This document shows positions 1,411 through 17,709 of a DNA stretch of 20,849 nucleotides, one piece after another. The notes under the pieces were generated by a model. That model was not told the origin of the DNA, searched no databases, and was given only the letters and a program-made list of their open reading frames with translations. The stretch's first letter is position 1, and each line of letters opens with the position of its first letter. The stretch covers positions 1-20,849 of the IMG/VR virus record IMGVR_UViG_3300005941_000067; one strand, given 5' to 3'. Position numbers and translations under genes: made by a program. The DNA comes from a virus.

Positions 1411-3156
1411 ATGAGTTGGAAAAAATATTTTACACCAGTACCAACTGGTAATAACACAGAAGGCAGTTATAGTCCCTTTAGCGGTCGTGGTGGCAGTATG
1501 AATGCTGGGCCTGCAAAATCTAACTATAGTTCCTACTTACCAGACGTATATGTTGGAAGTCCAAATCGTGTTGAACGCTACGGACAATATCATACAATGG
1601 ACATGGACAGTGAAGTTAATGCTGCTCTTGACATCCTCGCTGAATTCTGCACACAACAAAATACTCAAAATAGAACTCCGTTTATAACTGACTTTAAAGC
1701 AAAAGCAACAAATAGCGAAATTACAATTATTCAGCAATACTTACAACAGTGGTGTAAGTTACAAAACTTCGAAACTAGAATGTTCCGCATTTTACGTAAC
1801 ACGTTTAAAATGGGCGATGCATTTTTTATTAGAGATCCTGAAACTAAAAAATTGTTTCATGTTGATCCTGCTAAGTTAACAAAAATTATTGTCAACGAAA
1901 GTGAAGGCAAGAAGCCCGAACAGTATGTAATTAAAGATTTTAATTTAAATTTTGGAGAAATGGTAGCAACTACACCTTTCCAAACTAACGGAAACGTTAC
2001 TGGCGGCGGAGAAGGGTATTTAACTGGCGGTGCAAGAGGCATGGTTGGTAATGTTAATACACAAAATGCTGCAGGTGGTAGATTCCAAAATGCAGATAAC
2101 GAAATAGCTGTTGATGCAGAGCATATGGTACATTTAAGTCTGTCAGAAGGTTTAGATATGAATTATCCTTTTGGTAATTCATTATTAGAAACAGTATTCA
2201 AAGTATATAAACAAAAAGAATTACTCGAAGATGCAATTATTATATATCGAGTACAAAGAGCGCCTGAAAGACGTGTATTTTATGTTGACGTAGGTAACAT
2301 GCCTAGCCATTTAGCTATGCAATTTGTTGAAAGAGTAAAAACTGAAATACATCAAAGACGTATTCCGTCGCAAACAGGTGGAGGAACTAATGTAATTGAC
2401 AGTAGTTATAATCCTTTAAGTATAAATGAAGACTACTTCTTCCCACAAACAGCTGAAGGTAGAGGATCAAAAGTTGAAACACTACCAGGCGGAACTAATC
2501 TTGGAGAAATTGATGACCTTAGATATTTTACTAATAAGCTCGTACGCGGTTTACGAATTCCTAGCAGTTACTTACCTACCGGCGCTGACGATGCAAGTAG
2601 TCAGTACAATGACGGTAGAGTAGGAACAGCATATATTCAAGAATTACGTTTTAATACATATTGTGAAAGACTACAAAATTTATTAATCGAAGATTTTAAT
2701 CAAGAATTTAAAAGATATCTTTTAGAAAAAGGTGTAAACATTGATACAGCAATGTTTGATCTTAGATTTCAACCACCACAGAACTTTGCAAGTTATAGAC
2801 AAAGTGAAATTGACAATGCTAGAGTACCAACATACTCACAAATGAGTCAAATACCTTATATTTCAAATCGTTTTGCAATGAAACGATTCTTAGGCATGAC
2901 AGACGAAGAGCTTGCTGAAAACGAGCGTCTGTGGAGAGAAGAAAATGACGAAACACTATCACCTGGTCCAGGTGATGCAAGTGGAGAATTGAGAGGAGCC
3001 GGAATAAGTTCAGCAGGGATCGATGCAGATTTAGGTGGCATAGAAGATGTAGCAGATGATACAGCAGACCCTGATGTAGGCGCTGATGCAGAAGCACCCG
3101 AAACAGCAACAGGTGCACCAGGCACTGACGCCCCAACAACTGACCAAACGGTATAA
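1411..3156 (+). CDS. gp20: Portal vertex protein gp20 (T4-type)
   Basis: This is the portal of the unique head vertex: a dodecameric ring through which DNA is packaged and to which the tail joins. It also nucleates scaffold assembly. The 581-residue protein opens with MSWKKYF, the usual start in marine T4-like portals. It carries the family signatures YRVQRAPERRVFYVDVGNMP (near nt 2247-2306), an ETLPGGTNLGEIDDLRYF segment (near 2475-2530) and LRIPSSYLPTG in the conserved clip/wing region. A Gly-rich insertion lies near nt 1990-2095, and the C-terminal tail of roughly 60 residues is low-complexity, acidic and Ala/Pro/Thr-rich. T4 gp20 is about 524 residues, so the extra length sits mainly in these two places. 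AGGA at 1401-1404 lies 6 nt before the ATG and supports this start. The gene order 20, small gene, core, 21, 22, 23 confirms the assignment. Confidence 0.96.
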   Translation: MSWKKYFTPVPTGNNTEGSYSPFSGRGGSMNAGPAKSNYSSYLPDVYVGSPNRVERYGQYHTMDMDSEVNAALDILAEFCTQQNTQNRTPFITDFKAKATNSEITIIQQYLQQWCKLQNFETRMFRILRNTFKMGDAFFIRDPETKKLFHVDPAKLTKIIVNESEGKKPEQYVIKDFNLNFGEMVATTPFQTNGNVTGGGEGYLTGGARGMVGNVNTQNAAGGRFQNADNEIAVDAEHMVHLSLSEGLDMNYPFGNSLLETVFKVYKQKELLEDAIIIYRVQRAPERRVFYVDVGNMPSHLAMQFVERVKTEIHQRRIPSQTGGGTNVIDSSYNPLSINEDYFFPQTAEGRGSKVETLPGGTNLGEIDDLRYFTNKLVRGLRIPSSYLPTGADDASSQYNDGRVGTAYIQELRFNTYCERLQNLLIEDFNQEFKRYLLEKGVNIDTAMFDLRFQPPQNFASYRQSEIDNARVPTYSQMSQIPYISNRFAMKRFLGMTDEELAENERLWREENDETLSPGPGDASGELRGAGISSAGIDADLGGIEDVADDTADPDVGADAEAPETATGAPGTDAPTTDQTV

Positions 3157-3159
3157 ATA
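3152..3159 (+). promoter_or_regulatory. T4-type late promoter, exact TATAAATA
   Basis: An exact TATAAATA overlaps the gp20 stop codon. By T4 geometry (8-mer at about -13 to -6) the +1 would fall on the A of the next ATG at 3165. It shares the extended TAAATACTA with the sites at 4793 and 17734. Confidence 0.65.
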
Positions 3160-3164
3160 CTATT

Positions 3165-3410
3165 ATGATACTACGTGAATTATTTTATTTTGATAAAGAA
3201 ACATTAGAACCAGTCGAAGATTCATCTTACGACCCAGACCTTGACGATTCAGTAGTTAAGAAAAGCGATACTCGCAAAACAAGACTAACATTATCCCAAA
3301 TTAACCGCGTCCGCAAAGCAGCCGACATACATACTAAAGAGTCTAGTAAAGAACTTGACTTTATAAAGCAAATGTATGGAATTCCAGCTGTTGAAGCCGG
3401 CGGGGTGTAA
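3165..3410 (+). CDS. Small conserved protein in the gp67 position
   Basis: This 81-residue protein begins MILRELFYFDKETLEPVED and contains a DTRKTRLTLSQINRVRKAAD segment and a C-terminal KELDFIKQMYGIP. From memory, similar short proteins lie directly after gp20 in marine T4-like phages. By place and length it matches T4 gp67 (about 80 residues, prohead core), but it is mixed-charge rather than strongly acidic, so orthology is not claimed. A role in head assembly is inferred from position only. No Shine-Dalgarno is visible; the start is 5 nt after a late promoter core and 8 nt after the gp20 stop. It would therefore be read from a leaderless transcript or by coupling to gp20. Its stop overlaps the next start (TAATG at 3408-3412). 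Confidence 0.8.
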   Translation: MILRELFYFDKETLEPVEDSSYDPDLDDSVVKKSDTRKTRLTLSQINRVRKAADIHTKESSKELDFIKQMYGIPAVEAGGV

Positions 3411-4135
3411 TGGCGAAGTTAGATAAGTCACAATATACAAAAGAACAATGGCGCAGAATAAAAGAAGCTCGTCGCCAAGAAAAAGCCGCGGCTAAACTTC
3501 AGCAACAACAAACTGTTACTCCGTCTGTTAAAGAAATACACGAATCGTTTCAGCCTAACACAGCATTTGTACTAGGCAACGGTGTAAGCAGAGCCTCAAT
3601 TGATCCAGAAGATTTAAAAAAGTTAGGTAAAGTTTACGGGTGTAATGCATTATATAGATCATTCGAAGCAGATTGCCTAGTTGCAGTTGATGTTAAAATG
3701 ATTCTAGAAATTAATAAGTCAAGATATCAACACAAAGTTCCTGTTTGGACAAACCCTAACAAAAGTTTTCAAAACATAAGTGGATTAAATTATTTTTCGC
3801 CTAGCAAAGGCTGGAGTAGTGGACCAACAGCACTATGGTTAGCAAGCCAGCATGGATTTAAGAACATATATATCTTAGGATTCGATTTTCAGGGCATAGA
3901 TAACGAAAAATTTAACAATTTGTATGCTGATACCATGAATTATAAGAAATCTACAGAAGGACCTACGTTTTACGGTAACTGGATGCGTCAAACTAGATCG
4001 GTGTTTAAGGACCATACTGATATCAATTACCACAGAATAGTAACTGACAAAAGTTATATTCCAAAAGACCTTAAAGAAAATACTAACCTTAGTAATTTAC
4101 ATATAGATAAGTTTAAAGAACAATTTAGTTTGTAA
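3410..4135 (+). CDS. GT42/MptE-like Rossmann-fold protein, copy 1
   Basis: This 241-residue protein has a basic, helical N-terminal extension of about 45 residues (EQWRRIKEARRQEK) and then a compact domain. Its landmarks are AFVLGNGVSR, YGCNALYR, VAVD, a KGWSSGPTALWLA segment and IYILGFDF. In that order (GN-G-S, CN-x-x-Y, S-S-G, a hydrophobic strand ending G-F/I-D-F) they resemble GT42 sialyltransferases of the CstII type and, more loosely, DUF115/MptE-like proteins. Both are nucleotide-binding Rossmann-like folds. The substrate is unknown; a glycosyltransferase acting on a virion protein or the host surface is inference. Where copy 2 has His in TYYHNW, this copy has Gly189 (TFYGNW), so activity may differ. 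It overlaps the preceding gene by 1 nt and ends 1 nt before copy 2. Such a gene inside the capsid cluster is unexpected. Confidence 0.75.
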   Translation: MAKLDKSQYTKEQWRRIKEARRQEKAAAKLQQQQTVTPSVKEIHESFQPNTAFVLGNGVSRASIDPEDLKKLGKVYGCNALYRSFEADCLVAVDVKMILEINKSRYQHKVPVWTNPNKSFQNISGLNYFSPSKGWSSGPTALWLASQHGFKNIYILGFDFQGIDNEKFNNLYADTMNYKKSTEGPTFYGNWMRQTRSVFKDHTDINYHRIVTDKSYIPKDLKENTNLSNLHIDKFKEQFSL

Positions 4136-4136
4136 T

Positions 4137-4730
4137 ATGAAAGCAAATACAGCATTTGTTATAGGTAATGGTGTAAGTAGATCAGCAATTGATCTTAACT
4201 TACTTAAAAAACACGGAACAGTGTATGCATGTAATGCTGTATACCGAGATTATGATCCTGATTACTTAGTTGCTGTTGATCCTAAGATGGTATTTGAAAT
4301 AAATGAATCGCAATACCAACACAAGTATAATAATGTATGGACAAACAAGCATAAACGATTTGAAAATCTTAATGGATTTAATTATTTTGAAAAATCACTT
4401 GGTTGGAGTAGCGGCCCAACAGCATTAAGCCTAGCAAGTGAACACAAAAACAATATTATATACATGCTAGGATTTGATTATATGGGTGTAGACAGCGGGA
4501 AACTTTATAATAACATATATGCTAACACTAAAAACTATATGAATAAAACAGATAGAGCAACTTATTATCATAACTGGTTGCGACAAACTGAAGATGTTTT
4601 TAGAAAAAATCAGCAAATAAAGTACTGTAGAATAATATTACCAGATAATTTACAGACTCACAAACTAAATAGTTTTGTCAATTATAGTACAATGTTGATT
4701 GACGATTTCCGAGTAAAATTGGGAACCTAA
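4137..4730 (+). CDS. GT42/MptE-like Rossmann-fold protein, copy 2
   Basis: This 197-residue paralog of the preceding protein lacks the basic N-terminal extension and starts almost directly with the fold (MKANTAFVIGNGVSR). It keeps YACNAVYR, YLVAVDPKMVFEIN, a GWSSGPTALSLASEH segment, IYMLGFDY and a C-terminal NWLRQTEDVFRKNQQIKYCR. By eye this order parallels CstII-like GT42 sialyltransferases, whose C-terminal half has a catalytic His; His145 in TYYHNW is a candidate equivalent. No Shine-Dalgarno is evident and the start is 1 nt after the upstream stop, so translation is probably coupled. The pair looks like a tandem duplication that has diverged: similarity runs over the full shared domain at both protein and DNA level. 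Whether it is an enzyme or a binding protein cannot be decided from sequence. Confidence 0.78.
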   Translation: MKANTAFVIGNGVSRSAIDLNLLKKHGTVYACNAVYRDYDPDYLVAVDPKMVFEINESQYQHKYNNVWTNKHKRFENLNGFNYFEKSLGWSSGPTALSLASEHKNNIIYMLGFDYMGVDSGKLYNNIYANTKNYMNKTDRATYYHNWLRQTEDVFRKNQQIKYCRIILPDNLQTHKLNSFVNYSTMLIDDFRVKLGT

Positions 4731-4749
4731 CCTCACATTTTACAAAAAA

Positions 4750-4770
4750 GCTCGTTTTGAGCCTGTTTTA
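4750..4770 (+). terminator. Weak possible terminator after the GT-like pair
   Basis: A 4-bp stem GCTC/GAGC (4750-4753 and 4759-4762) with loop GTTTT is followed by a T-containing tract. The stem is short and the T-run interrupted, so it may only slow RNA polymerase or be chance. Confidence 0.25.
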
Positions 4771-4790
4771 GCACCTATTTTCAACTATAT

Positions 4791-4798
4791 AGTAAATA
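4791..4798 (+). promoter_or_regulatory. Late promoter AGTAAATA before the prohead core gene
   Basis: AGTAAATA shares the TAAATACTA extension with the sites at 3152 and 17732 and lies in a 113-nt intergenic gap. The predicted +1 near 4804 gives a leader of about 40 nt that includes a TTACC-ATA-GGTAA hairpin (4811-4823) and the ribosome site TAGGAG (4832-4837). Confidence 0.6.
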
Positions 4799-4843
4799 CT
4801 AGTGACAGCCTTACCATAGGTAAACATTTTATAGGAGACAAAA

Positions 4844-5761
4844 ATGGCAGATCAAAATAAGTTTGAAAGTATGCTAGAAAAGCTCGTCAACGAAGACAGA
4901 GCTGGAGCAGAAGAATTATTTCACGAAATCGTAGTTGAAAAATCAAGAGATATCTACGAATCATTATTAGAAGACGACTTAGCAGAAGTTGAAGAAACAG
5001 CTGCTGAAGTTGAAGAAGCTACTGACGAAGAAGTCGATGAAGCTACTGACGAAGAAGTTGATGAAGCATCTGAAGATGACGATGCTGAAGAAGTTGCAGA
5101 AGACTTTGACCTAGACGAATTTGAAGTAGAAGCAGACCCAATGGAAGCAGACCCAGCAGATGACATGATGGGCGACATTGAAGATGCAATGGACGGCGAA
5201 GAAGATAGCGGCGAAGAAGAAATTGAAGATAGAGTTGTTGATTTAGAAGACGCATTAGACGATCTTAAATCAGAATTTGAAAAAATGATGGCTGGCGACG
5301 AAGACGAAGCTGGTGATGAAGACGAAGCTGGCGACGAAGACGAAGCTGGTGACGAAGATGACGATTCAGAAGAAGAGTCATTTAACTTTGAGTCAACTGA
5401 CGAAGAAGTTGAAGAAGCTACTGACGAAGAAGTTGAAGAAGCAGATGATGAAAAATCAGAAGCAGAAACAATGCGTGAGTATGTTGAAAAAGTAACACCT
5501 AAAATGGGCGACAATGGCGCAAATGCTAAGTCGGTTGTAGCTGGTGCTAACAACATGGGCGGAGAAGCTGGAAACATTGCACAAGGCGGTGAAGAAAGTG
5601 GACGCACAGCAGATTCAGCAAAAGAAGAAGATGCAGGCAATGTAAATAAGCCAGGCGGAAAAGCTTCTAAATCTTTAAAAGGTGATTCAAAAGGCCACGG
5701 CGCAGAGAAGAAAAGCGCAGGCGAAACTGCAGACAACAAGAAATCTGTTGTTGGCAAGTAA
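4844..5761 (+). CDS. Acidic prohead core protein (gp67/gp68-like)
   Basis: This 305-residue protein fills the gp67/gp68 position just before the protease gene. Residues 1-45 (FESMLEKLVNEDRAGAEELF, then an IVVEKSRDIYESLLE segment) resemble the N-terminal helical part of T4-type prohead core proteins. Residues about 45-210 are almost entirely Asp/Glu/Ala/Val with short tandem repeats. The last 90 residues are Gly/Lys/Ser/Asn-rich and basic. Such proteins fill the prohead core with gp22 and are cut to peptides by gp21, which favours sites of the (L/I)-x-E type. A strong TAGGAG at 4832-4837 fits the ATG at 4844, and a late promoter lies about 45 nt upstream. T4 core proteins are much shorter (about 80 and 141 residues), so the acidic region here is expanded. 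Confidence 0.82.
   Translation: MADQNKFESMLEKLVNEDRAGAEELFHEIVVEKSRDIYESLLEDDLAEVEETAAEVEEATDEEVDEATDEEVDEASEDDDAEEVAEDFDLDEFEVEADPMEADPADDMMGDIEDAMDGEEDSGEEEIEDRVVDLEDALDDLKSEFEKMMAGDEDEAGDEDEAGDEDEAGDEDDDSEEESFNFESTDEEVEEATDEEVEEADDEKSEAETMREYVEKVTPKMGDNGANAKSVVAGANNMGGEAGNIAQGGEESGRTADSAKEEDAGNVNKPGGKASKSLKGDSKGHGAEKKSAGETADNKKSVVGK
5018..5065 (+). repeat. Two tandem 24-bp repeats encoding ATDEEVDE
   Basis: Two nearly identical 24-bp units (5018-5041, 5042-5065) encode ATDEEVDE. Related copies (TDEEVEE, ATDEEVEE) recur at 5396-5440 downstream of the 18-bp array, so the acidic region was built from at least two duplicated modules. Confidence 0.85.
5291..5362 (+). repeat. Four tandem 18-bp repeats encoding AGDEDE
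   Basis: Four in-frame 18-bp units encode AGDEDE three times and a variant AGDEDD. Units differ only at a few synonymous third positions plus the end of the last copy. Copy number is likely to vary between relatives. Confidence 0.9.
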
Positions 5762-5776
5762 ATTAGGAAAATCTGA

Positions 5777-6400
5777 ATGAAAAACCTACGAGAGACATTG
5801 ACATTTGACCAAGCTAATATGGTTATTGAGTCTGCTAACGAGGGAAAAGACTTATACCTTAAGGGTATTTGTATACAGGGCGGGGTGCGTAATGCTAACC
5901 AACGTGTATATCCTGTAAAAGAAATTGGCAGGGCTGTCAAAACTCTCAATGATCAAATACAAGGAGGATATAGTGTTCTCGGAGAAGTTGATCATCCAGA
6001 AGGACTTAATATTAACCTAGACCGTGTATCACACATGATTGAATCAACATGGATGGACGGCGCTAATGGTTACGGAAAGATGAAAATTTTACCAACCCCA
6101 ATGGGACAACTAGTTAAAACAATGCTGGAAAGCGGAGTTAAACTAGGTGTTTCATCGAGGGGCTCTGGTAACGTATCAGAAGACGGGTCCGGTGAAGTAT
6201 CGGACTTTGAAATTATTACTGTGGACGTTGTGGCTCAGCCTAGCGCCCCAGGAGCATATCCTACACCAATCTACGAGCATTTAATGAATGCACGTGGAGG
6301 AATGGCAGCATATGAATTAGCACAGGCAACAAAACAAGACCCCAAGGCACAGAAATACTTAAAAGAATCGCTGATTAACATAATCAGTCGACTCCAATAA
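5777..6400 (+). CDS. gp21: Prohead maturation protease gp21
   Basis: This is a serine protease of the T4 gp21/herpesvirus assemblin-like fold that digests the prohead core and trims the capsid protein during maturation. Its 207 residues match the usual size (T4 gp21 is about 212). The motifs GEVDHPEG (residues 69-76, candidate catalytic His73) and GVSSRGSG (124-131, candidate nucleophile Ser126 or Ser127) are the family hallmarks. They are followed by a SDFEIITVDVVAQPSAPGA segment that closes the active-site core. The N-terminal region (FDQANMVIES, then RNANQRVYPVKEI) is also typical. AGGA at 5765-5768 supports the ATG. It sits 15 nt after the acidic core gene and 12 nt before the scaffold gene, so the three are probably one operon. 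Catalytic residues are assigned by motif, not by structure. Confidence 0.95.
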   Translation: MKNLRETLTFDQANMVIESANEGKDLYLKGICIQGGVRNANQRVYPVKEIGRAVKTLNDQIQGGYSVLGEVDHPEGLNINLDRVSHMIESTWMDGANGYGKMKILPTPMGQLVKTMLESGVKLGVSSRGSGNVSEDGSGEVSDFEIITVDVVAQPSAPGAYPTPIYEHLMNARGGMAAYELAQATKQDPKAQKYLKESLINIISRLQ

Positions 6401-6412
6401 AAGGAGATTAAT

Positions 6413-7504
6413 ATGTTGGATGCATTAAAAACACTTTTTGAAAACGATGTAGTTTCAGAAGATGTGCGTCAACAAATTCAAGAAGCATGGGACCAAAGGG
6501 TGATCGAAAATCGCCAAGCGGTAACAGCAGAACTACGTGAAGAGTTTGCACAAAAATATGAGCATGATAAGTCAACTATGGTTGAAGCTATTGACTCATT
6601 AGTAAGTGAAAAACTAGCAGAGGAAATTTCAGAATTCACTGAAGACCGTAAACAACTAGCAGAAGCAAAAGCAAAATATGCAGTAGCAATGCGTGAAAAC
6701 GCAACGTTAATGAAAGATTTTGTTATTGATCAGTTAGGTGCAGAGGTATCCGAGCTACACGAAGACCAAAAAGCTATGGCTGAAAACTTTAGCAAATTGG
6801 AAGAATTTGTCGTCGAGCAACTTGCACAAGAAATTGCAGAATTTGCAGAAGATAAAAAAGACTTAGCAGAAACCAAGGTTAAACTTGTAAAAGAAGCTAA
6901 ATCACACTTCGCTAAAGTTAAAACAGACTTTATCGAAAGAAGTGCTACTAAGGTATCTGAAATTGTTGAATCAACACTTAACAGTGAGATTGGACAACTT
7001 AAAGAAGATATCGAAGAGGCACGAAGAAACGACTTTGGTCGTAAGTTGTTTGAAGCATTCGCTAGCGAATATTCAAATAGCTACCTAAACGAAAAGTCGG
7101 AAACTGCTAAACTAATGCAGGTTATTGGTGTTAAAGACCAGCAACTAGCAGAAGCAAAGACGTTTGCGACAAAGGCAAAACAATTAGCTGAATCAGTTAC
7201 TGTTGAAAAGCAGAGACTAATTGAATCAGCAAAAAGAGCAAGTGTTCTAAACGAACTGACTGCACCTTTATCGAAAGACCAAAAGGACATAATGTCAGAT
7301 CTACTGGAATCCGTTCAAACTCCAAAACTACGTGCGGCGTTTGATAAGTACTTACCTACTGTTATTGACGGTAATACTCCAGCTAAAAAGAAGGCGCTTA
7401 CAGAAGGCAAAGAAATCACAGGCAATAGAGAAGAAATGACAACAAACAGTAGACAAGCAGAGGACAATAATGTCGTTGACATTCGTCGTCTAGCTGGATT
7501 ATAA
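6413..7504 (+). CDS. gp22: Prohead core scaffold protein gp22
   Basis: This is the main scaffold inside the prohead, around which gp23 assembles and which gp21 later degrades. The 363-residue protein is almost wholly helical and charged. An internal duplication is visible: LAEEISEFTEDRKQLAEAK (near nt 6613-6670) and LAQEIAEFAEDKKDLAETK (near nt 6820-6880), each followed by a long Lys/Ala-rich coiled segment. The C-terminus NNVVDIRRLAGL is a signature end of gp22 in marine T4-like phages and is probably the contact to the capsid protein. T4 gp22 is about 269 residues, so this one is longer, partly because of the duplication. A strong AAGGAG at 6401-6406 fixes the start. The stop overlaps the TATAAATA just before gp23. 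Confidence 0.93.
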   Translation: MLDALKTLFENDVVSEDVRQQIQEAWDQRVIENRQAVTAELREEFAQKYEHDKSTMVEAIDSLVSEKLAEEISEFTEDRKQLAEAKAKYAVAMRENATLMKDFVIDQLGAEVSELHEDQKAMAENFSKLEEFVVEQLAQEIAEFAEDKKDLAETKVKLVKEAKSHFAKVKTDFIERSATKVSEIVESTLNSEIGQLKEDIEEARRNDFGRKLFEAFASEYSNSYLNEKSETAKLMQVIGVKDQQLAEAKTFATKAKQLAESVTVEKQRLIESAKRASVLNELTAPLSKDQKDIMSDLLESVQTPKLRAAFDKYLPTVIDGNTPAKKKALTEGKEITGNREEMTTNSRQAEDNNVVDIRRLAGL

Positions 7505-7507
7505 ATA
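7500..7507 (+). promoter_or_regulatory. TATAAATA at the gp22/gp23 junction
   Basis: An exact late-promoter 8-mer overlaps the gp22 stop codon and touches the gp23 Shine-Dalgarno AAGGAG (7507-7512). With T4 geometry +1 would be about 7513, after the Shine-Dalgarno, so a transcript from here would have only a 6-nt leader. It may be a real promoter for a strongly expressed gene or a chance match created by stop plus ribosome site. Confidence 0.4.
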
Positions 7508-7518
7508 AGGAGATAATT

Positions 7519-8694
7519 ATGTCAGAACTACTAGAAAGTCGCTGGCAGGAAACCAAAGGCGCACTTCTTGAAGGCTTAAACGGCAACAAGAAAAGCGTGA
7601 TGGCTGCTACACTTGAGAATACTCGTAAGTATTTGTCAGAGAGTGCAACAGCTGGTGCAAGTTCCGCCGGTAACGTCGCAACCTTAAATCGTGTGATCCT
7701 TCCAGTGATCAGACGTGTAATGCCAACCGTTATTGCTAACGAGTTAGTTGGTGTACAACCTATGACTGGACCAGTTGGTCAAATCCACACATTGAGAGTA
7801 CGTTATGCAGATGCAGTAAACTCAACTAATGGTACAGACACAGCAGCTGGTGACGAGGCGTTAAGCCCATTCAAGATTGCTGAAGCGTATTCAGGTGCTT
7901 TAGATGATAAAGCAGCTGCTACATCAGCGTTAGAAGGCTCAGCTGGTAACAGACTAAGCATTCAAATCTTGAAGCAAACTGTAGAAGCGAAATCCAGAAA
8001 GCTATCAGCTCGTTGGACTTTTGAAGCTGCTCAGGATGCACAATCACAGCACGGTATTGATGTTGAAGCAGAAATTATGGCTGCATTAGCACAAGAAATT
8101 ACTGCTGAGATTGACCAAGAAGTAATTGCTAGTCTTTACAGCCTAGCAGGATCTGCAGAGTCAGACGTACAGTATGACCAATCAGGTGTTAGCGGAACAG
8201 CTACATTTGTTGGTGATGAGCACGCCGCTTTAGCAGTGATGATAAACAGAGCAGCTAACAAAATTGCTCAGCGCACAAGACGTGGCGCTGGTAACTTTGC
8301 TGTTGTTTCACCACATACCTTAACAGTATTACAAAGTGCTACTACTTCAGCGTTCGCAAGAACAACTGAAGGTTCTTTTGAAGCACCTACTAATACTAAG
8401 CTAGTTGGTACATTAAACAATGCAATGAAAGTATATGTTAACACATACGCTTCAGACGCAACTGATGTATTAGTTGGTTATAAAGGTTCAAGTGAATCAG
8501 ACGCAGCTGCATTCTATTGCCCATATATTCCATTAATGAGCAGTGGAGTTGTATTAGACCCAGACACATTCGAACCTGTTGTGAGCTTCATGACACGTTA
8601 CGGATATGTTGAGTTAAACAACACAGCATCATCTCTTGGTAACGCAGCTGACTACTTGGCACGTGTAAGCGTAGCTAACGTAAGCTTCAGTTAA
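7519..8694 (+). CDS. gp23: Major capsid protein gp23
   Basis: This HK97-fold protein forms the hexamers of the head. Family signatures are VGVQPMTGPVGQIHTLRVRY (about residues 76-95), RKLSARWTFEAAQDA (about 160-174) and RTRRGAGNFAVVSP (about 252-265), followed by FYCPYIPLMSSGVVLDP and a C-terminal VSFMTRYGYVELNN. It has 391 residues against 521 in T4, so the insertion domain and central loops are short. The N-terminal 41 residues end in LSE (39-41), a good (L/I)-x-E prohead-protease site, shortly before the conserved segment; mature protein may start at Ser42. LLE6 and LLE18 also fit that rule. AAGGAG at 7507-7512 supports the ATG. A strong terminator follows within 50 nt. No gp24 vertex gene follows in the window. 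Confidence 0.95.
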   Translation: MSELLESRWQETKGALLEGLNGNKKSVMAATLENTRKYLSESATAGASSAGNVATLNRVILPVIRRVMPTVIANELVGVQPMTGPVGQIHTLRVRYADAVNSTNGTDTAAGDEALSPFKIAEAYSGALDDKAAATSALEGSAGNRLSIQILKQTVEAKSRKLSARWTFEAAQDAQSQHGIDVEAEIMAALAQEITAEIDQEVIASLYSLAGSAESDVQYDQSGVSGTATFVGDEHAALAVMINRAANKIAQRTRRGAGNFAVVSPHTLTVLQSATTSAFARTTEGSFEAPTNTKLVGTLNNAMKVYVNTYASDATDVLVGYKGSSESDAAAFYCPYIPLMSSGVVLDPDTFEPVVSFMTRYGYVELNNTASSLGNAADYLARVSVANVSFS

Positions 8695-9180: not shown

Positions 9181-9270
9181 GTCAAATAGTGTGCCGCAAG
9201 GCGGACTTATGCTGTACCAACAGCGTAGCCCATAGAACGGGCATAGGACTACTATTATAGGAGAAAAAAA
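9181..9270 (+). promoter_or_regulatory. Structured 5' leader of the virion-protein operon
   Basis: This leader of about 90 nt can fold into three successive hairpins. They are GCC-GCAA-GGC (9193-9202, a GNRA loop) or the competing CCGC/GCGG, GCTGT-ACCA-ACAGC (9211-9224, extendable to 9207-9228 with wobbles) and GCCC/GGGC (9228-9242). They are followed by an unpaired A-rich ribosome site (TAGGAG 9258-9263). The role may be mRNA stability or translation control. No known riboswitch or tRNA is recognised. Confidence 0.5.
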
Positions 9271-9720
9271 ATGGGAAGACCACTAAACAAAAGATTATTC
9301 GGAGCACCAACAGCTGGTGGGAGCGAAATCAAAATAAACTTTCATAATGGCACAGCCGTTAAAGAAGGTTATATCGTAAAGCAAGTAGGATCAAAAAAGT
9401 TTGTATGTGAAGAAATCGGTACAGGCGGAGAATTTACTTGTACGCTAACAACTGGTAAATTGCCAGCGGCATTAGCGGCAGGTGAAATGGCTATTTCATT
9501 CAAAATGGACGATGCAGAAACATACACAGTAAGTAAAATTGCTGGACGTAAAGTTACTTTGTCAGCACCAAGTGCAACAGGCAGTAATGCTTATGATGGC
9601 AAGAGTGTTCCATGGAACTTTGCAACATCTACTACAGATGGCGCAGCACAAGTTGAAGAAGCTGGTGATGATAACACATTAATCGGATCTGATGACGACG
9701 ACTTTACAGAAGACGCATAA
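9271..9720 (+). CDS. Virion structural protein (MGRPLNKR family)
   Basis: The 149-residue protein opens MGRPLNKRLFGAPTAGGSEI, an N-terminus I associate with an abundant structural protein of marine T4-like phages. The middle (EGYIVKQVGSKKFVCEEIG, FTCTLTTGKLPAALAAGEM) looks like short beta strands with two Cys. The tail is acidic (DDNTLIGSDDDDFTEDA). A strong Shine-Dalgarno (TAGGAG 9258-9263) and a dedicated leader suggest high expression, as for a head decoration or tail surface protein. Exact location in the virion is unknown. It is first in a tight operon with the genes up to 12110. Confidence 0.75.
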   Translation: MGRPLNKRLFGAPTAGGSEIKINFHNGTAVKEGYIVKQVGSKKFVCEEIGTGGEFTCTLTTGKLPAALAAGEMAISFKMDDAETYTVSKIAGRKVTLSAPSATGSNAYDGKSVPWNFATSTTDGAAQVEEAGDDNTLIGSDDDDFTEDA

Positions 9721-10097: not shown

Positions 10098-11189
10098 ATG
10101 GCAAGATATTCTAAAATAGACGGTGATTATATCCTAGCTGTTACAGACGGCGGAGAAATAAAACTTGACGTAGGGCCAAATAGCAGTGGCGGTACTGTTC
10201 GAATTACAGGTGACTTAGTTGTTGAAGGAGAAACTACAACTATTCAAACATCTGAAATGAAAATTGAAGATAGAATTATTACACTTAACCAAACAAGTGC
10301 TGCTATATCATCTGTTCCTGGTAGAGTAGCAGGCCTTGAAGTATATAGAGGATCAGCTGATGAAGTTTACTTTGTATTCGACGAGGACGTTGAAAATGGA
10401 CCAGGCAACTTACTTGGATACGGTGCATGGGCGGCTAGAAAAGTAGTTCCGTCAACATCAGGTTCAACGTTATTAGGACTTCAAACAAACAGCATTGATA
10501 CTAAAGGTGCTAGTTTATATCTTATAAACCAAGGCAGTGGTGCTATTGTTACCGTTGAAGGTTGTGTTGATTATCATGAAAACATATATCCTTACGTAAC
10601 ACCAGGCGGTAATGACATTGATGTTAACGCAGCTATTACAAAGCCCGATGGACTTGTTAATGCACAAGGCGTTGCAGATTATACACAATCATTCTTCCAA
10701 GGTAGATTCCAAGATAAAATTCAAGAAGGCGTAACTACAACATCATCAGTTGAAGTATTTGACATTGAAGTTGCAGGAGCATTAGATCCTACTAATGTAG
10801 GATACCGAGCAGAAAGCCAAATTGAATTTGAATTAGATGGCACAGTAGTAAGTAGATTTTTTGGCGACAGAGTACAATTACAACACGTTAAAATTACTGA
10901 TACTACAATATCAACTACTTCAGCAAGTGACTTAATATTAAAGGCTCCTGGAACCAATAATATAAGAATAGATGATATACTACACTTAACACCAGGACCG
11001 TTTGAAAATGATGCTAATTTGGGAGTTGACGGCGATACAACAAAACCTGACTACCCAACATCAGGAATTAAAGTGTATGCTGATACCGAATCAGTTGGCG
11101 GAACAGGCTTACATTTTGTAAATAGTAATAACAAAGCAGATGAAGTAATTAGTCGTAATAGGGCTATATTATATTCAATGATATTTTAG
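10098..11189 (+). CDS. Fibre-like virion structural protein
   Basis: The 363-residue protein starts MARYSKIDGDYILAVTDGGE and continues with GGTVRITGDLVVEGETTTIQ and MKIEDRIITLNQTSA. This is a beta-rich pattern common in tail fibre and baseplate-associated proteins of marine T4-like phages. Near nt 10905-10975 it has ITDTTISTTSASDLILKAPG, a degenerate form of the repeat module that dominates the two giant proteins downstream (ITTTxSNxDLELRAxGTG). The C-terminal segment (PTSGIKVYADTESVGGTGLHFVNSN, in two parts) resembles fibre tips that end in a trimeric beta domain. AGGGAC (10084-10089) is a weak ribosome site, and coupling to the gene 3 nt upstream is likely. Confidence 0.72.
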   Translation: MARYSKIDGDYILAVTDGGEIKLDVGPNSSGGTVRITGDLVVEGETTTIQTSEMKIEDRIITLNQTSAAISSVPGRVAGLEVYRGSADEVYFVFDEDVENGPGNLLGYGAWAARKVVPSTSGSTLLGLQTNSIDTKGASLYLINQGSGAIVTVEGCVDYHENIYPYVTPGGNDIDVNAAITKPDGLVNAQGVADYTQSFFQGRFQDKIQEGVTTTSSVEVFDIEVAGALDPTNVGYRAESQIEFELDGTVVSRFFGDRVQLQHVKITDTTISTTSASDLILKAPGTNNIRIDDILHLTPGPFENDANLGVDGDTTKPDYPTSGIKVYADTESVGGTGLHFVNSNNKADEVISRNRAILYSMIF

Positions 11190-11199
11190 AGGACAGACA

Positions 11200-11586
11200 A
11201 TGGCAATACATAACGTAGAAATTGGTAGCGATCATGATGGAAACGGGCGTACTAGCCTATTACCAAATAGTAACCCAAGCGGAGCAGCAGACTACCGCGT
11301 TCCAGTAGGAAAAAAATGGGCCATTACTACAATACTATTTTGTAATACAGGAATAGCAGATCCTGACACACCAAATAGTGATTTAACATTTTTAAGTTTA
11401 CACTTTGTAAAAGGTGGAGATCCAGCAGGAGATAAAAACTTAGTTCTTAACGCTATTCCTATACCAGGTGGCGAAACATTTACGTTTGATACTGAAAAGA
11501 TAATTTTAGAAGAAAACGATTTAGTATATGCACTTACTACATCACCAGAAGTAATTAGTGCAACAATTAGTTATTTGGAAGTGTAA
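11200..11586 (+). CDS. Small virion protein, jelly-roll-like
   Basis: This 128-residue protein has alternating beta segments (YRVPVGKKWAITTILFCNTG, TFLSLHFVKGG, NLVLNAIPIPGGETFTFDTE, LVYALTTSPEVISATISYLEV). A core such as VPVGKKWAI...FCNT with a late PGGETFTFDTEKIIL resembles small beta-sandwich phage structural proteins that sit on fibres or baseplates. GAGGA at 11189-11193 supports the start. Its stop overlaps the next start by one base (TAATG). Beyond a structural role, no function can be assigned. Confidence 0.65.
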   Translation: MAIHNVEIGSDHDGNGRTSLLPNSNPSGAADYRVPVGKKWAITTILFCNTGIADPDTPNSDLTFLSLHFVKGGDPAGDKNLVLNAIPIPGGETFTFDTEKIILEENDLVYALTTSPEVISATISYLEV

Positions 11587-12150: not shown

Positions 12151-15100
12151 ATGGCACAACTCGGTAGAATTTCAGGACCAATATTAAAGGACAACCTTTT
12201 ACGTGAAGGTGTGGATATTGCTTTTGAAACAGACTTACTTTATATTGATGTAAACAATGATAAGATCGGTATTAGAAATAATACTCCAGGGTCTGATCTT
12301 CATTCCCCTAACATACGAACAACTAATATAATCGTTGATACCCTTGCTCAAATAGATGATATAACAATACAACCGGCGGGTAATATAACACCATCATTTG
12401 GCGACATAAATTTTAATCCGACACGAAGTGTTGTTGTTCCAGGAACACTAAAGACAGTAGATGTTAAGATATCTAATAATTATATAGCTACTAACGGAAC
12501 TAATCAAAACTTAGAACTTCGTACTAATGGTGTCGGAACTGTTGAAACAAATGGTTTATTAGTAAATGCTAATTTACATGCAACTGGGGATATTACAGCA
12601 GACGGAAATATTACATTAGGTAGTGACGATACTGATAACATAGCATTCAATGCAGACATTATTAGTAATATTATTCCAGACCAGAACGAGACATTTAATT
12701 TAGGCCAAAGTAACAAACGATGGAATAACATATATACTAAATTAGTTAACGGCGAAGAAGTTGGCGTAAGCGGAGCATTGATTGCAGGTGTTAATCCAAC
12801 TTTAGATGTAGGTAATAGTTACTATGTTACTAAAAACGGTGACGATTCAAATGCTGGTATACACACATACGAAGCATTTTTAACTCTTAAATATGCTTGT
12901 TCTCAAGCAACAGCAGGCGATACTATTATTGTGTTTGCTGGTGAATACGAAGAAGCATTTCCAATAGAAGTTCCTGCAGGTGTTACTATTAAAGGTAACG
13001 ATTTTAGAAATACAATTATTAAACCCACTGTAGCAACTAATAATAATGACTGCTTTTTATTAAATGGTGAAGCAACAGTTATACACCTTACAATTAAAGA
13101 CTTTTATTACGATAGCGTTAACGACGAAGGGTATGCATTTAGATTTGCTAATAATGCAACTATTACTTCAAGAAGTCCGTACATACAAGACATCACAGTA
13201 ATTACAAAAGGTAGTGTTACAAGTGCAAGCGATCCTAGAGGATTTACTCAAGGAGACGCAGGTAAAGGTGTTCTAGTAGATGGAGCAAGTGTATTAAACA
13301 CAAGTCAAGAAGCAAGCATGTTGTTCCATAGTTGTACATTTATTACGCCAGGTGTTGATGCACTTACTATAACCAATGGCGTTAGGGTTGAATGGTTAAA
13401 CTCGTTTACATATTTTGCAAACAGAGGATTATATGCTGTCAACGGAAGTACAGGACATTTAAGTACAGACGGAAGTACAGTTAAATTTGGTGGCGAAATA
13501 CGTTCAATTGGATCAGCAAACGTATACGGTAACTTTGGTGCTGTGTCTGACGGTGCTGATTGTTTAATGTACTTAATACAACATAACTTTGGATATATAG
13601 GTGCAGGCAAAGATGTTACTAATGACACAGGACTTGCTCTACAAGCACAAGAAGTTACAGAACTAAATTCAGGAAAAATATATTATAGCTCAACTGATCA
13701 GTTAGGCAACTTTAGAATAGGCGATTCGTTTTTTGTAGATTTTGAAAACGGAAATACTACAGTTGATTTAGATAGTTTAACAGCAAACGCATTACGAGGG
13801 TTAACTGTTACAACAAACGACGAATCAACAATATTAGCAGGAACATCAATTAGTACTGGCAATTTAAGATTTTTAGGAAATGATATTATTTCATTCCAGG
13901 GCGCAATTAATATTGATTCACAATCAGGTGCTATTAATTTAACTGGAAATACGTTAGTTGATGAAGATTTAGATGTTACTGGTAATCTAAGTTTTGGAGG
14001 GGCATTAAATGTTTTAGGTAACGAAGGCAATGACACATTAGATCTTAATGTAGACTTTGATCAAGACTTTAACCCACACACTACTGGAAACTTTGATTTA
14101 GGTAAATCAAACAAACTTTGGAACACTGTATTTTCGTCAAAAGCTGATATCCAAAATATTACAATACAAGATAACTTTATTACTACAGTTGATTCAAACA
14201 CCGCCTTAGAGCTACGAGCAAGCGGCACAGGCAACGTTTTAGTTAGTGGTAACAATGTACAAGTAAACAACGATCTTGCTGTTAGCGGGCTTACAACGCT
14301 GTCTAACACGGGGATTACAGGCACATTAACACATATAGGAAATTATGTACAAACAGGCGATGCTTCGGTTACTAACTCAACAGTAACAGGGCATATTGAT
14401 GTAAGTGAATCAGCACAATTTGAAGAAATATTAATTGATGATAACTTCATTACAACTACTACATCAAACACTGATTTAGAACTACGTGCAAATGGCACAG
14501 GCGAAGTACTAATACCAAATAACAATGTTACTATAACTAATAACTTAACTGTAACTAATGATATTAATAATACTGGCGATGTTGATGTAACTACTACTAC
14601 TGAATTTAATACTGCCATTGTTGATGACATTACTATAGTTGGTAATGAAATTAAAACTAATAACGGAAATAGAAATTTAGAATTCCGTGCTGCTGGCAGC
14701 AACTCAAACTATAAAGTACGTCTACTTGACGATGTTGAAATGGGCCAAGCATTAACGGTTGACACATTATTAGATGTAAACAATATAACTGTTAACGGAA
14801 CTATTACACATACTGGCAACAGAACTCAAACAGGAAATTATACATTATCAGGAGAACTACTTACTCCTGAAATACGTATTGAAGATAACTTTATTACAAC
14901 TACTAATTCAAATGCAGATCTTGAATTAAGAACACATTCAGGCAACATTACAGTAACAGGTAATGATGTAGTAATTACAAACAACCTAACTGTTAGTACA
15001 GACACTGACATTGATGATGTTACATTAACAGGCTTATTAACTGTAAACAGTCCTTATAATCAAACTGGAACTACAGCGATTTCAGGACAAGTAGCACTTA

Positions 15101-17709
15101 ACAATACAATATTATTAGATTCTAATATAGTATCAGTTACAGCAACAGATACTGATTTAGATCTACGTGCAAATGGCACAGGTGAAGTAACAATGCCATT
15201 TAACGATGTTGAATTTAGACAAGATTTAACAGTAAATGGTACAACAACACTTAACGGCTCATATGTTATAAACGGTGAAATGACCCATATTGGTGATATT
15301 AACCAACAAGGTAATTTCTATCTTAGCGGCGAACTTATTAGTGACGAATTAAAAATTGAAGACAACTTCATTACAACTGTTACATCAAATAGTGATTTAG
15401 AACTACGTGCAAGCGGCTCTGGTAATGTTACTATACAAAGTAACGATGTAACACTTGCTCAAGACTTAACTGTTTCTGCATTAACAACTTTACAAGCAAC
15501 TGATATAACCGGACTACTTACTCAAACAGGTAATAGAAACCAAACAGGAAACTATTCTTTATTGGGAGAATTTAACGGTCCTGAAATTTTAATCGAAGAC
15601 AACTTTATTACAACTACAACAGGTAATACAGACTTAGAATTAAGATCAGCTTCCAGTCCAATTACATTTAATGACAATTTACAGATACCAAACAATTTAA
15701 CTATTAACGGAACTAGTACATTAGAAAATACTAATATTGACGGATTGCTTACTCTTAACGGAACATGGAATCAAACAGGTACTAGTAATATTACTGGTAA
15801 TGTAGATATTGATGATTTTAGAATAAGCGGATCAACTATTGAAACAACAACTTCGTCGGCAGACTTAGAACTGTTAGCAAACGGATCTGGGCTAGTTAAA
15901 TTTGGTATTAATGATGTTGACTTTGATCAAGATTTAACAGTTAACGGAACAACAACAATAGGATTGTTCCCTACATTTTCATATGTAGATGTTAATGGTC
16001 TATTAACCCATGTCGGAAACACTACGCAAACTGGTAACAAACAAGTAACAGGTAATGTTACAGTAACACAAGACTTAGATGTAAGTTCACAAGCACAATT
16101 TGAAGAAGTACTAGTTGCTGGTAATGTGATAGCAACTACTACAACAAATAGTGATTTAGAGCTACGTGCAAATGGCACTGGTGATGTTATTTCTCAAAAT
16201 CAAATTACAGTTAGTAATGATGTAAGTGTTGCAAGCATTACAACCGGTGATATAAATGTTACACAAGATATTAATTTAGATGATATTGTTGTAAACAGTA
16301 ATAATATACAAATTAACGACAACTATATTGAAACCACAATATCAAATAGTGATCTAGAATTACGTGCTACAGGTAAAATCAATATCCAAGAAAATATTAC
16401 CTTAGGACAAAACTTAACCGTAACTGGGGTTACTGATTTACAAGATACTAATATTACTGGGTTGTTAACACGTATCGGTAATACAAATCAAACAGGCAAT
16501 GCTGTTATTAACGGCAATGTAACTGTATCATCAGATTTAGAAATTAATGCTAAAGTTGCATTTGAAGAAATTGTTATAGATGATAATATTATTACAACTA
16601 CATCTAGTAATGCTGATTTAGAACTTAGATCAGCAGGAACAGGCAGTATTATTGTTCCTAACAATAATGTTGATATATCAAATAATTTAATAACTAACAC
16701 GTTAAATTCTAAAGGAATTAATATCAACAATACGTTTGCTTTAGAAAATATGGTTAGTAGTACTGATATTGATATTTTTGATAATGTTATTACTACTACT
16801 AATTCAAATAGTAATTTAGAACTACGTGCAAGCGGCGCAGGCTTGGTATATCTACAAGAGTTAGGATTTAATAATAACATTATTGCATCGGTATCTAGTA
16901 TTAAATTACAAGCCCCTAATGTAATTATTAATAGTACAGGATCTTTACAAATTCCTGTAGGCAACGAATCTGAAATATTACTTGCATCGGCAGGATCAAT
17001 AGATGGTGGTACAGCTTCGATAACAGGAGCAATAATATCAGGTGGTAATGCATCAACAGTGTTTACAGTAAATGATGTAGTTTATAATTCAGCTGGTGCA
17101 GCATCGGGCGGAAGTAACTTAGGAAACCCCGGCACATTTAGATATAATACAACTGATAACGTATATGAAGGTTTTGATGCATCAGTGATATCATTTGGTC
17201 AAGTAGCATCTGATGATAGAAATACTAAAGTAAGTATACATCCTACAACAAACATAATAACATTTACAGCCAATACTGCATCTGTCGGTACTATTGATTC
17301 TACTGGATTACATGTTGATGAAATTCAAGTTGATGATATTAATATTCAAAGTAATACTATTTCAACTAATAATACAAACGCCGATCTTGACTTAGTAGCA
17401 AACGGAACCGGAAATGTAAGATTAGAAAATATAGATATTGATTTTGGAGTATTAGATATAGATGTAATCGGTGGCACTGGAACGCATACTGTAATATTTC
17501 CAGGCAATCGAGCTGTTAAATTTCCGTCAGGAACAACAGCAGAACGTCCAGCAAGCCCATTATTAGGTCAGACAAGACATAACAGTACACTCAATGAATT
17601 AGAAACTTGGATTGGTACTAAATGGCAAAACTCTGCAGGTGAGTTTGATGCTATATCAGCGCAAGAGATGGAAGACGAAGCTCTCGTACAGACTCTAATC
17701 TACGGCTAA
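12151..17709 (+). CDS. Giant repetitive fibre protein with pectin-lyase-like domain, paralog 1
   Basis: This 1852-residue protein is probably a trimeric fibre or baseplate spike for host contact. Residues 1-70 (MAQLGRISGPILKDNLLREG, FETDLLYIDVNNDKIGIR) match the N-terminus of the next gene and are likely the attachment domain. Residues about 223-530 form a DUF1565/pectin-lyase-like beta helix (SYYVTKNGDDSNAG, FLTLKYACSQATAGDTIIVF, FPIEVPAGVTIKG); such domains can bind or cut polysaccharide, but no catalytic residues are evident. Residues about 660-1760 carry 13 copies of a module with DDNFITTTTSNTDLELRANG-type cores and LTHxGNxxQTGN linkers; one earlier core lies near residue 118. The C-terminus has a RYNT motif (nt 17137) and a TAERP motif (nt 17536-17549). 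Composition is very rich in Asn, Thr, Asp and Ile. The start is supported by the paralog and AAGGA at 12134-12138. Confidence 0.88.
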   Translation: MAQLGRISGPILKDNLLREGVDIAFETDLLYIDVNNDKIGIRNNTPGSDLHSPNIRTTNIIVDTLAQIDDITIQPAGNITPSFGDINFNPTRSVVVPGTLKTVDVKISNNYIATNGTNQNLELRTNGVGTVETNGLLVNANLHATGDITADGNITLGSDDTDNIAFNADIISNIIPDQNETFNLGQSNKRWNNIYTKLVNGEEVGVSGALIAGVNPTLDVGNSYYVTKNGDDSNAGIHTYEAFLTLKYACSQATAGDTIIVFAGEYEEAFPIEVPAGVTIKGNDFRNTIIKPTVATNNNDCFLLNGEATVIHLTIKDFYYDSVNDEGYAFRFANNATITSRSPYIQDITVITKGSVTSASDPRGFTQGDAGKGVLVDGASVLNTSQEASMLFHSCTFITPGVDALTITNGVRVEWLNSFTYFANRGLYAVNGSTGHLSTDGSTVKFGGEIRSIGSANVYGNFGAVSDGADCLMYLIQHNFGYIGAGKDVTNDTGLALQAQEVTELNSGKIYYSSTDQLGNFRIGDSFFVDFENGNTTVDLDSLTANALRGLTVTTNDESTILAGTSISTGNLRFLGNDIISFQGAINIDSQSGAINLTGNTLVDEDLDVTGNLSFGGALNVLGNEGNDTLDLNVDFDQDFNPHTTGNFDLGKSNKLWNTVFSSKADIQNITIQDNFITTVDSNTALELRASGTGNVLVSGNNVQVNNDLAVSGLTTLSNTGITGTLTHIGNYVQTGDASVTNSTVTGHIDVSESAQFEEILIDDNFITTTTSNTDLELRANGTGEVLIPNNNVTITNNLTVTNDINNTGDVDVTTTTEFNTAIVDDITIVGNEIKTNNGNRNLEFRAAGSNSNYKVRLLDDVEMGQALTVDTLLDVNNITVNGTITHTGNRTQTGNYTLSGELLTPEIRIEDNFITTTNSNADLELRTHSGNITVTGNDVVITNNLTVSTDTDIDDVTLTGLLTVNSPYNQTGTTAISGQVALNNTILLDSNIVSVTATDTDLDLRANGTGEVTMPFNDVEFRQDLTVNGTTTLNGSYVINGEMTHIGDINQQGNFYLSGELISDELKIEDNFITTVTSNSDLELRASGSGNVTIQSNDVTLAQDLTVSALTTLQATDITGLLTQTGNRNQTGNYSLLGEFNGPEILIEDNFITTTTGNTDLELRSASSPITFNDNLQIPNNLTINGTSTLENTNIDGLLTLNGTWNQTGTSNITGNVDIDDFRISGSTIETTTSSADLELLANGSGLVKFGINDVDFDQDLTVNGTTTIGLFPTFSYVDVNGLLTHVGNTTQTGNKQVTGNVTVTQDLDVSSQAQFEEVLVAGNVIATTTTNSDLELRANGTGDVISQNQITVSNDVSVASITTGDINVTQDINLDDIVVNSNNIQINDNYIETTISNSDLELRATGKINIQENITLGQNLTVTGVTDLQDTNITGLLTRIGNTNQTGNAVINGNVTVSSDLEINAKVAFEEIVIDDNIITTTSSNADLELRSAGTGSIIVPNNNVDISNNLITNTLNSKGININNTFALENMVSSTDIDIFDNVITTTNSNSNLELRASGAGLVYLQELGFNNNIIASVSSIKLQAPNVIINSTGSLQIPVGNESEILLASAGSIDGGTASITGAIISGGNASTVFTVNDVVYNSAGAASGGSNLGNPGTFRYNTTDNVYEGFDASVISFGQVASDDRNTKVSIHPTTNIITFTANTASVGTIDSTGLHVDEIQVDDINIQSNTISTNNTNADLDLVANGTGNVRLENIDIDFGVLDIDVIGGTGTHTVIFPGNRAVKFPSGTTAERPASPLLGQTRHNSTLNELETWIGTKWQNSAGEFDAISAQEMEDEALVQTLIYG
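14140..17420 (+). repeat. Coding array of DLELRAxGTG fibre modules
   Basis: Thirteen in-frame cores encoding D/N-L-E-L-R-A-x-G-T-G or variants lie near 14201, 14470, 14671, 14911, 15151, 15391, 15628, 15859, 16150, 16340, 16613, 16810 and 17381. Most spacings are about 190-290 bp, with one larger gap before the last; an extra core is at 12505. DNA conservation is strongest over GATTTAGAACTACGTGCAAA. Between cores, N-L-T-V and L-T-H-x-G-N-x-x-Q-T-G-N segments alternate. Confidence 0.85.

Follow-up and report, generated by a model that had tools for sequence, protein, structure and literature searches.

What are two transferase-like genes doing in the middle of a T4-type head gene cluster? The question is raised by the viral record IMGVR_UViG_3300005941_000067, whose 20,849 nucleotides (nt), all of which we analysed and refer to as the window, contain such a cluster. 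Two adjacent genes, copy A and copy B, occupy exactly positions 3410–4730, between the portal gene and the gene at the prohead-core position. Their products are paralogs with 53% identity across 192 aligned columns (E 7e-70), and both carry the landmarks GNGVS, CNALY or CNAVY, SSGP and GFD, as the first-pass annotation of this DNA had read by eye. The translational coupling that it described is also present: the TAA of the preceding 81-amino-acid gene at the gp67 position (hereafter small) shares one base with the ATG of copy A (TAATG), and a single nucleotide separates copy A from copy B. Taken together, sequence comparison and structural modelling make the homology of both copies to the CstII/Maf superfamily well supported.

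Relationship to the CstII and Maf transferases

AlphaFold2 models were obtained for copy A from the 84-row family alignment (A2; mean predicted local distance difference test, pLDDT, 92.1; predicted template modelling score, pTM, 0.79) and for copy B from a 47-row alignment (pLDDT 94.2, pTM 0.91). The best structural match of both predicted models is the Maf glycosyltransferase 5mu5, with Z scores of 12.8 (A) and 12.9 (B) over 168–170 residues and a root-mean-square deviation of 3.5–3.6. CstII matches the models with Z scores of 10.6 (A) and 10.7 (B) over 175–176 residues, and CstI with 10.0–10.2. Below Maf and CstII stands the archaeal HPPK 8sd5, an MptE-type 6-hydroxymethylpterin diphosphokinase (Z 9.7 over 134–135 residues), and lower still are thiamin pyrophosphokinases (about 9), the division regulator SteA (8.9, with B) and human sialyltransferases (7–8). 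Reductoisomerases, dehydratases and dehydrogenases score 5–7, under Maf, CstII and CstI. With Foldseek alone, two sialyltransferases head the matches of copy B (E 1.3e-3).

A profile of 30 family members chosen to be diverse (alignment A6) gave nine matches below E 0.001 among solved structures, all of them GT42 sialyltransferases (best CstII, 1e-5), aligned through the GNGxS, CN, SG and GxD region; no other family reached significance, and no diphosphokinase appeared among the solved structures up to E 10. At E 0.01, the Pfam model CST-I (PF06002) matches 21 of the 84 members of A2 and the MptE-like model (PF01973) five; in the diverse set these numbers are 3 and 2 of 30. PHROG 30607, which has no annotated function, matches all 30 diverse members (best E 3.1e-160), and PHROG 4603, annotated as an alpha-2,3-sialyltransferase, matches A and B more weakly and 13 of the 30. 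NCBIfam returned no match for either copy. Among the predicted viral structures of BFVD, the top-ranking entries for copy A (best E 1.2e-11) are phage proteins that are themselves uncharacterised and do not inform on function, with DUF115 and MptE-like names lower down. The by-eye guess of GT42- or MptE-like proteins is thus upheld by two confident models and a profile search; structure prediction and fold searching, which had been named beforehand as the check, yielded a Rossmann-type fold, and neither Pfam nor PHROGs assigned A or B to a T4 structural family.

The landmark motifs are real features of the family. Ten residues (in B numbering, G10, N11, S14, R15, N33, R37, D114, N125, N126 and Y134) are invariant in 30 of 30 rows of A6. 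Twenty positions are at least 95% conserved in these diverse rows, among them GNG-SR, CN--YR, the Asp of G-D, NN and Tyr134, and the motifs are therefore not there by chance. SSGP is at least 95% conserved in A2, though not as a whole motif in A6. Both copies keep all 24 of the family positions checked.

The likeness to known enzymes also has its limits. According to excerpts of PMC11339370, Maf acts on a self-assembling protein, one Maf enzyme using CMP-Neu5Ac or CMP-KDO (CMP, cytidine monophosphate) on Ser/Thr of flagellin, with mass shifts of +291 Da for Neu5Ac and +220 Da for Kdo. The same excerpts give Maf three domains, whereas the phage protein is a single domain of about 195 residues, with an added helix in copy A, and sits in a phage head operon. 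CstI and CstII share GNGxS, CN, SG and GxD with the phage copies, which are shorter. The MptE-type enzyme appears to share the Rossmann core, but its match covers only residues 48–211 of A and 3–167 of B.

Placement, inheritance and operon signals

We call an occurrence type I where the family gene lies beside small and/or the core gene, and type II where it lies downstream of gp23; a locus is scored as lacking the gene when none was seen within the stretch covered. Similarity scans with alignment each retained the 80 top-scoring among at least 581 confirmed relatives, and the loci fetched by similarity are nearest relatives, near-copies included, with 84 distinct last-150-residue stretches among their type I open reading frames (ORFs). 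A less biased sample, baited with the capsid protein and ordered by resemblance to that of a Vibrio phage, comprised 80 loci (46 informative, 5 partial and 29 non-informative). The family gene adjoins small and/or the core gene in 94 of 99 similarity-fetched loci, some contigs showing one neighbour. Among the 46 informative capsid-bait loci, the gene is found at this site in 24, downstream of gp23 in 3, and not in the stretch covered in 19. In many type II contigs it follows gp23 and, if the contig extends far enough, precedes homologues of the window ORFs at 10098–11586. Altogether, 258 sequences hold 220 family ORFs: 137 of type I, 59 of type II, 6 of a pelagimyophage type and 18 unplaced. 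Two metagenome-assembled-genome contigs assigned to Neomarinimicrobiota, L099 (153 kb) and L100 (335 kb), bear a type I head cluster and are probably phage contigs in a bacterial bin.

The expectation that the pair is fixed at this locus held for a single gene, at those 94 of 99 loci, and failed for the pair. Two copies occur in ten fetched loci and the window, only within the window's clade, and one copy is the usual state of the other type I loci (L010 is cut). The tandem thus reflects a local duplication and is not a fixed unit.

No family gene was found between small and core in the jumbo T4-like isolates Vibrio phage 2.275.O, Phosso, GAP32 and PA5oct, four phages with a close capsid protein (66–71% identity). 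When 50,697 phage records were searched at the protein level with a threshold of E 0.001, the pelagimyophages HTVC008M (two accessions) and Mosig alone yielded relatives; PHROG 30607, the profile that all 30 members of A6 match, represents HTVC008M-type pelagimyophage proteins. Of four copies from HTVC008M and Mosig, three are longer (about 267–281 residues, with an insert) and the fourth has 185 residues. The gene lies between uvsY and uvsW in HTVC008M and L108, and near gp59 and gp32 in Mosig and L107. Copies of this type, longer than those of the window, were located at 6004–6834 of L013, 5956–6816 of L108, 7992–8837 of L015 and 5965–6909 of L107.

The history of the gene was compared with that of the major capsid protein. 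After capsid frames shorter than 370 residues or of undetermined gene status had been dropped, 124 were usable, giving 110 distinct rows; the resulting tree, rooted on the jumbo isolates, is a quick one with several weak branches. On it, 2 changes suffice for type I, as against 36.7 after shuffling, and type II and absence take 5 each. Type I forms one group, and its sister group comprises type II together with 12 rows that showed no copy of the gene. Over 84 single-copy loci, family and capsid distances are correlated with rho 0.80, and within type II alone with rho 0.77, values reached in 0 of 999 permutations in either case. We rejected a recent random insertion, as placement, tree and distance correlation together point to long co-inheritance with the capsid gene.

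The ratios of nonsynonymous to synonymous divergence (dN/dS), 0.08–0.11 for A and 0.12–0.18 for B, indicate from the codons that both copies are under purifying selection. In comparison with L006 and L020, the synonymous divergence of A and B is about 2–8 times above that of the protease and gp23 genes (5777–8694), which suggests recombination inside the head cluster.

Signals around the genes were counted across the relatives. The box TATAAATA, the T4 late promoter consensus, was found just ahead of small in 47 of the 96 distinct stretches of type I, in none of the 20 of type II and in 3 of the 22 that lack the gene, against a background of 0.008 per 80 nt; directly upstream of the family gene it is found in 0 of 186 cases. 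The window by itself shows no enrichment (2 sites, 3.6 expected). Behind the family gene, a terminator-like hairpin occurs in 53 of 96 distinct type I spacers, compared with a mean of 3.4 and a maximum of 7 in 30 shuffles. It is this enrichment that underlies the hairpin call, since RNAalifold did not predict it, and between 3000 and 5000 of the window alone the terminator-like sites on both strands (2, versus 1.1 in shuffles) are not above chance. All 94 distinct type I spacers contain TAAATA ahead of the core gene, but so do 43 of the 45 stretches between small and core in the other types. Between this box and the core gene lies a near-invariant 20-nt element, TGACAGCCTTACCATAGGTA, whose GACAGCC recurs in 73 of the 94 distinct spacers of type I and in none of the 45 others, while the flanking family proteins differ by about half. 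The element has the appearance of a 5' leader or of a binding site that has been conserved; RNAalifold detected no covariation in it, and Rfam gave no match up to E 1 at 4650–4900. Finally, 97 distinct junctions between small and the family gene include 31 with a one-base overlap, 25 with a three-base gap and 15 with no start in the range examined. In many type I phages, small and the transferase-like gene therefore look, from the sequence patterns, like a separate late unit within the head cluster, and the proposal of late, head-linked production gains support from the conserved operon order, the late-type promoter and the terminator-like signals.

Candidate functions of the transferase-like proteins

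The reading that we put first, at somewhat less than even confidence, is that the locus encodes a duplicated Maf/CstII-like enzyme, made late, that transfers a sugar, in the cytoplasm, to Ser or Thr residues of a virion protein. The transferase would probably be produced alongside the head proteins from a small transcription unit of its own, and its acceptor would be a self-assembling virion protein, modified much as Maf modifies flagellin. Of this reading, the relationship in fold, the conserved motifs of the pocket, the placement, the inheritance, the purifying selection and the operon signals are observed, whereas catalytic activity, donor, late timing and acceptor are deduced from them. 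A more specific form, in which a minimal glycosyltransferase with a catalytic centre unlike that of GT42 places an ulosonic acid such as Kdo on a capsid or virion protein during assembly, is put forward more tentatively. The donor would most likely be a sugar of the ulosonic-acid type in activated form, perhaps CMP-Kdo from the host or another CMP-sugar related to it. CMP-Kdo occurs in most Gram-negative bacteria, and a host donor would be needed, since genes for donor synthesis are rare in the long phage records: of 19 searched, one has CTP_transf_3 and none has NeuB, although these records may be fragments. A phage-encoded supply of CMP-sugar was accordingly set aside. The lone case is record G005 (which holds L038), with CTP_transf_3 at 2544–3131 on the minus strand (E 5e-29) and a type I gene.

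We infer a virion acceptor, rather than one on the host surface, from the setting of the gene. A role in making or protecting the virion is probable, because the gene is co-inherited with the capsid gene across a widespread group known from contigs and often has its own late-type promoter and terminator; for a late enzyme made together with head proteins, glycosylation of one of them would be the simplest case. Virion glycosylation itself is already known, with few cases among tailed phages in the text available to us: excerpts of PMC11256854 and PMC12619734, both citing Freeman 2023, report capsid glycans in mycobacteriophages. In Che8 and Rita, phage glycosyltransferases are thought to decorate the major capsid protein, a situation resembling the one proposed here, whereas the glycosyltransferase genes of Maravista lie near the 3' end of the genome and not in a head operon (excerpts of PMC11256854). 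No GT42- or Maf-like gene in a T4-type head cluster was described in the literature searched, which consisted of titles and the starts of abstracts, mostly of non-subscription papers. The new part would be the transferase-like gene in a T4-type head operon. If the reading is correct, virion glycosylation is coupled to T4-type head assembly in a large environmental clade; PHROG 30607 gains a probable enzyme class, and the family offers a compact single-domain model of the Maf/CstII fold.

Several observations weigh against this reading. HPPK/MptE, thiamin pyrophosphokinase and SteA (Z 8.7–9.7) follow closely behind the transferases, and Foldseek alone puts the Methanocaldococcus jannaschii HPPK at the top for copy A (E 2.8e-4). 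Both copies miss the curated Pfam cut-offs, scoring 18.3 and 19.1 bits for CST-I (cut-off 25) and 20 (A) and 12.8 (B) bits for MptE-like/Maf (cut-off 34.6). The family has no conserved His, the best column reaching 74% in the 84 rows of A2 and 34% in the 30 rows of A6, and His188 of CstII, the GT42 general base, therefore has no counterpart; placed by eye against the CstII sequence, the corresponding region seems to hold Asn-Trp. Strict membership of GT42 thus fails, on both the catalytic His and the Pfam cut-off. Nested within the type I clade, four rows form a group without the gene at the site, so that the gene is not indispensable there, and the correlation with capsid distance within type I alone is weak (rho 0.32), though again 0 of 999 permutations were as high. 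About half of the type I loci have no exact TATAAATA at small, and 43 of 96 type I spacers have no hairpin. The pelagimyophage relatives occupy a replication and recombination region instead of the head operon, so a link to the head does not hold throughout the wider family.

The main rival, which we consider unlikely, is a late glycosyltransferase that alters the host surface, on lipopolysaccharide (LPS) or another glycan, to act against superinfection or re-adsorption of progeny, the head operon providing only the timing. CstI and CstII act on lipooligosaccharide, and the solved GT42 relative 9c08 is named a lipooligosaccharide sialyltransferase. Excerpts of PMC7029224 read pelagimyophage glycosyltransferases as likely modifiers of the host O-chain, and pelagimyophages carry relatives of the present family. 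The same excerpts, however, place 63 of 162 LPS-related proteins in a tail-fibre variable region and the others scattered in small clusters, whereas the gene studied here is bound to the head and virion operon in two sister groups, at two different sites.

Less probable still is a non-enzymatic assembly factor, in which a transferase fold is kept as a scaffold or a prohead-core component. The regular site among head genes, the tight coupling to the gene at the gp67 position and the absence of the GT42 His would all suit it, and so would the basic N-terminal helix of copy A, which could bind the acidic core protein. But conservation is strictest in GNGxSR, CN, SSGP, GFD and NN-Y, the parts that align with CMP-sugar enzymes, the gene can be missing or moved, and the helix is present in only 64 of 137 type I ORFs (and in 0 of 59 type II, 0 of 6 pelagimyophage-type and 0 of 18 unplaced ORFs). 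The same helix could, under the enzymatic reading, tether the transferase to the very acidic core protein. Such a core is not a partner specific to extension carriers, being acidic in every group, with medians of -18 to -28 per 100 residues.

The extension also bears on a quite improbable reading, that the product is packaged inside the head as an internal protein, enters the host together with the DNA and modifies a target there after injection. T4 Alt and the internal proteins are packaged head proteins of this kind, and the conserved basic extension is found only on copies beside the prohead core gene. Yet more than half of the type I ORFs, including copy B, lack it, and an [IL]xE site of the kind cut by gp21 occurs in only 23 of 45 extensions, which is not convincing. 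Nor does the extension appear to be a capsid-targeting signal common to other proteins, as no other convincing ORF bears it in the 258 sequences, which cover only parts of phages (best E 0.036).

An equally improbable alternative is a diphosphokinase, either MptE/HPPK-like or thiamin-pyrophosphokinase-like. Beyond the Foldseek rank and the Z score of HPPK, it can draw on the MptE-like Pfam model, which reaches E 6e-4 on copy A. That model cannot separate the two possibilities, since PF01973 also covers Maf (excerpts of PMC11339370). Against a diphosphokinase, CST-I outmatches the MptE-like model in both family sets, and the sequence profiles retrieve GT42 enzymes.

Modification of DNA is the least probable of all. 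The thymidylate-synthase family, which includes the T4-type hydroxymethylases, is represented in 1 of 15 long type I records and in 3 of 4 others (possibly fragments). DNA glycosylation by phage enzymes is known (excerpts of PMC7029224) and the replication-region sites in pelagimyophages would fit it, but in the main clade the gene is head-linked.

Features of the window

The features are collected in Table 1. The labels gp67 position, core and scaffold follow the T4 gene order.

Table 1. Genes and candidate signals of the head cluster in the window
Feature	Position	Strand	Basis or remark
Portal gene (gp20, T4-type)	1411..3156	+	Pfam Portal_T4 E 1.2e-110; PHROG 213
T4-late-type promoter box TATAAATA ahead of the small-A-B unit	3152..3159	+	Motif match
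small, 81 residues, gp67 position, first gene of unit	3165..3410	+	PHROG 13986, unknown function
Copy A, 241 residues, predicted CstII/Maf fold, basic N-terminal helix	3410..4135	+	Model; PHROG 30607 E 1.1e-28
Basic N-terminal extension of A, residues 1–34 (helix 11–34)	3410..3511	+	Conserved in 45/84 A2 rows
Copy B, 197 residues, predicted CstII/Maf fold, no extension	4137..4730	+	Model; PHROG 30607 E 2.5e-32
Terminator-like hairpin GCTC-GTTTT-GAGC, T-rich tail, end of unit	4750..4762	+	Sequence pattern
GTAAATA, late-promoter-like box of next unit (core)	4792..4798	+	Motif
Near-invariant 20-nt non-coding element TGACAGCCTTACCATAGGTA ahead of core gene	4803..4822	+	Conservation
Prohead-core-position gene, very acidic	4844..5761	+	Net charge -92 over 308-codon open frame
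Prohead protease, gp21 type	5777..6400	+	Peptidase_S77 E 3.5e-26
Scaffold-position gene	6413..7504	+	PHROG 10922 E 2e-81, unknown function; T4_CASP only E 0.07
Major capsid protein gp23	7519..8694	+	Pfam Gp23 E 4.3e-99

The PA5oct homologue of small (E 1e-9) is annotated as a structural protein, with a note of electrospray ionisation tandem mass spectrometry (ESI-MS/MS). The core-position gene was not named by any family in the Pfam and PHROG searches. Downstream of gp23, the cis-regulatory freshwater-2 RNA of Rfam (RF02980) matches 9190–9273 with 72.3 bits and ends at the start of the ORF at 9271–9720. Further on, the window contains two consecutive giant repeat-rich genes with alike N-termini, at 12151–17709 and 17857–20847; PHROGs of baseplate wedge and tail fibre proteins match the beginning of the former.

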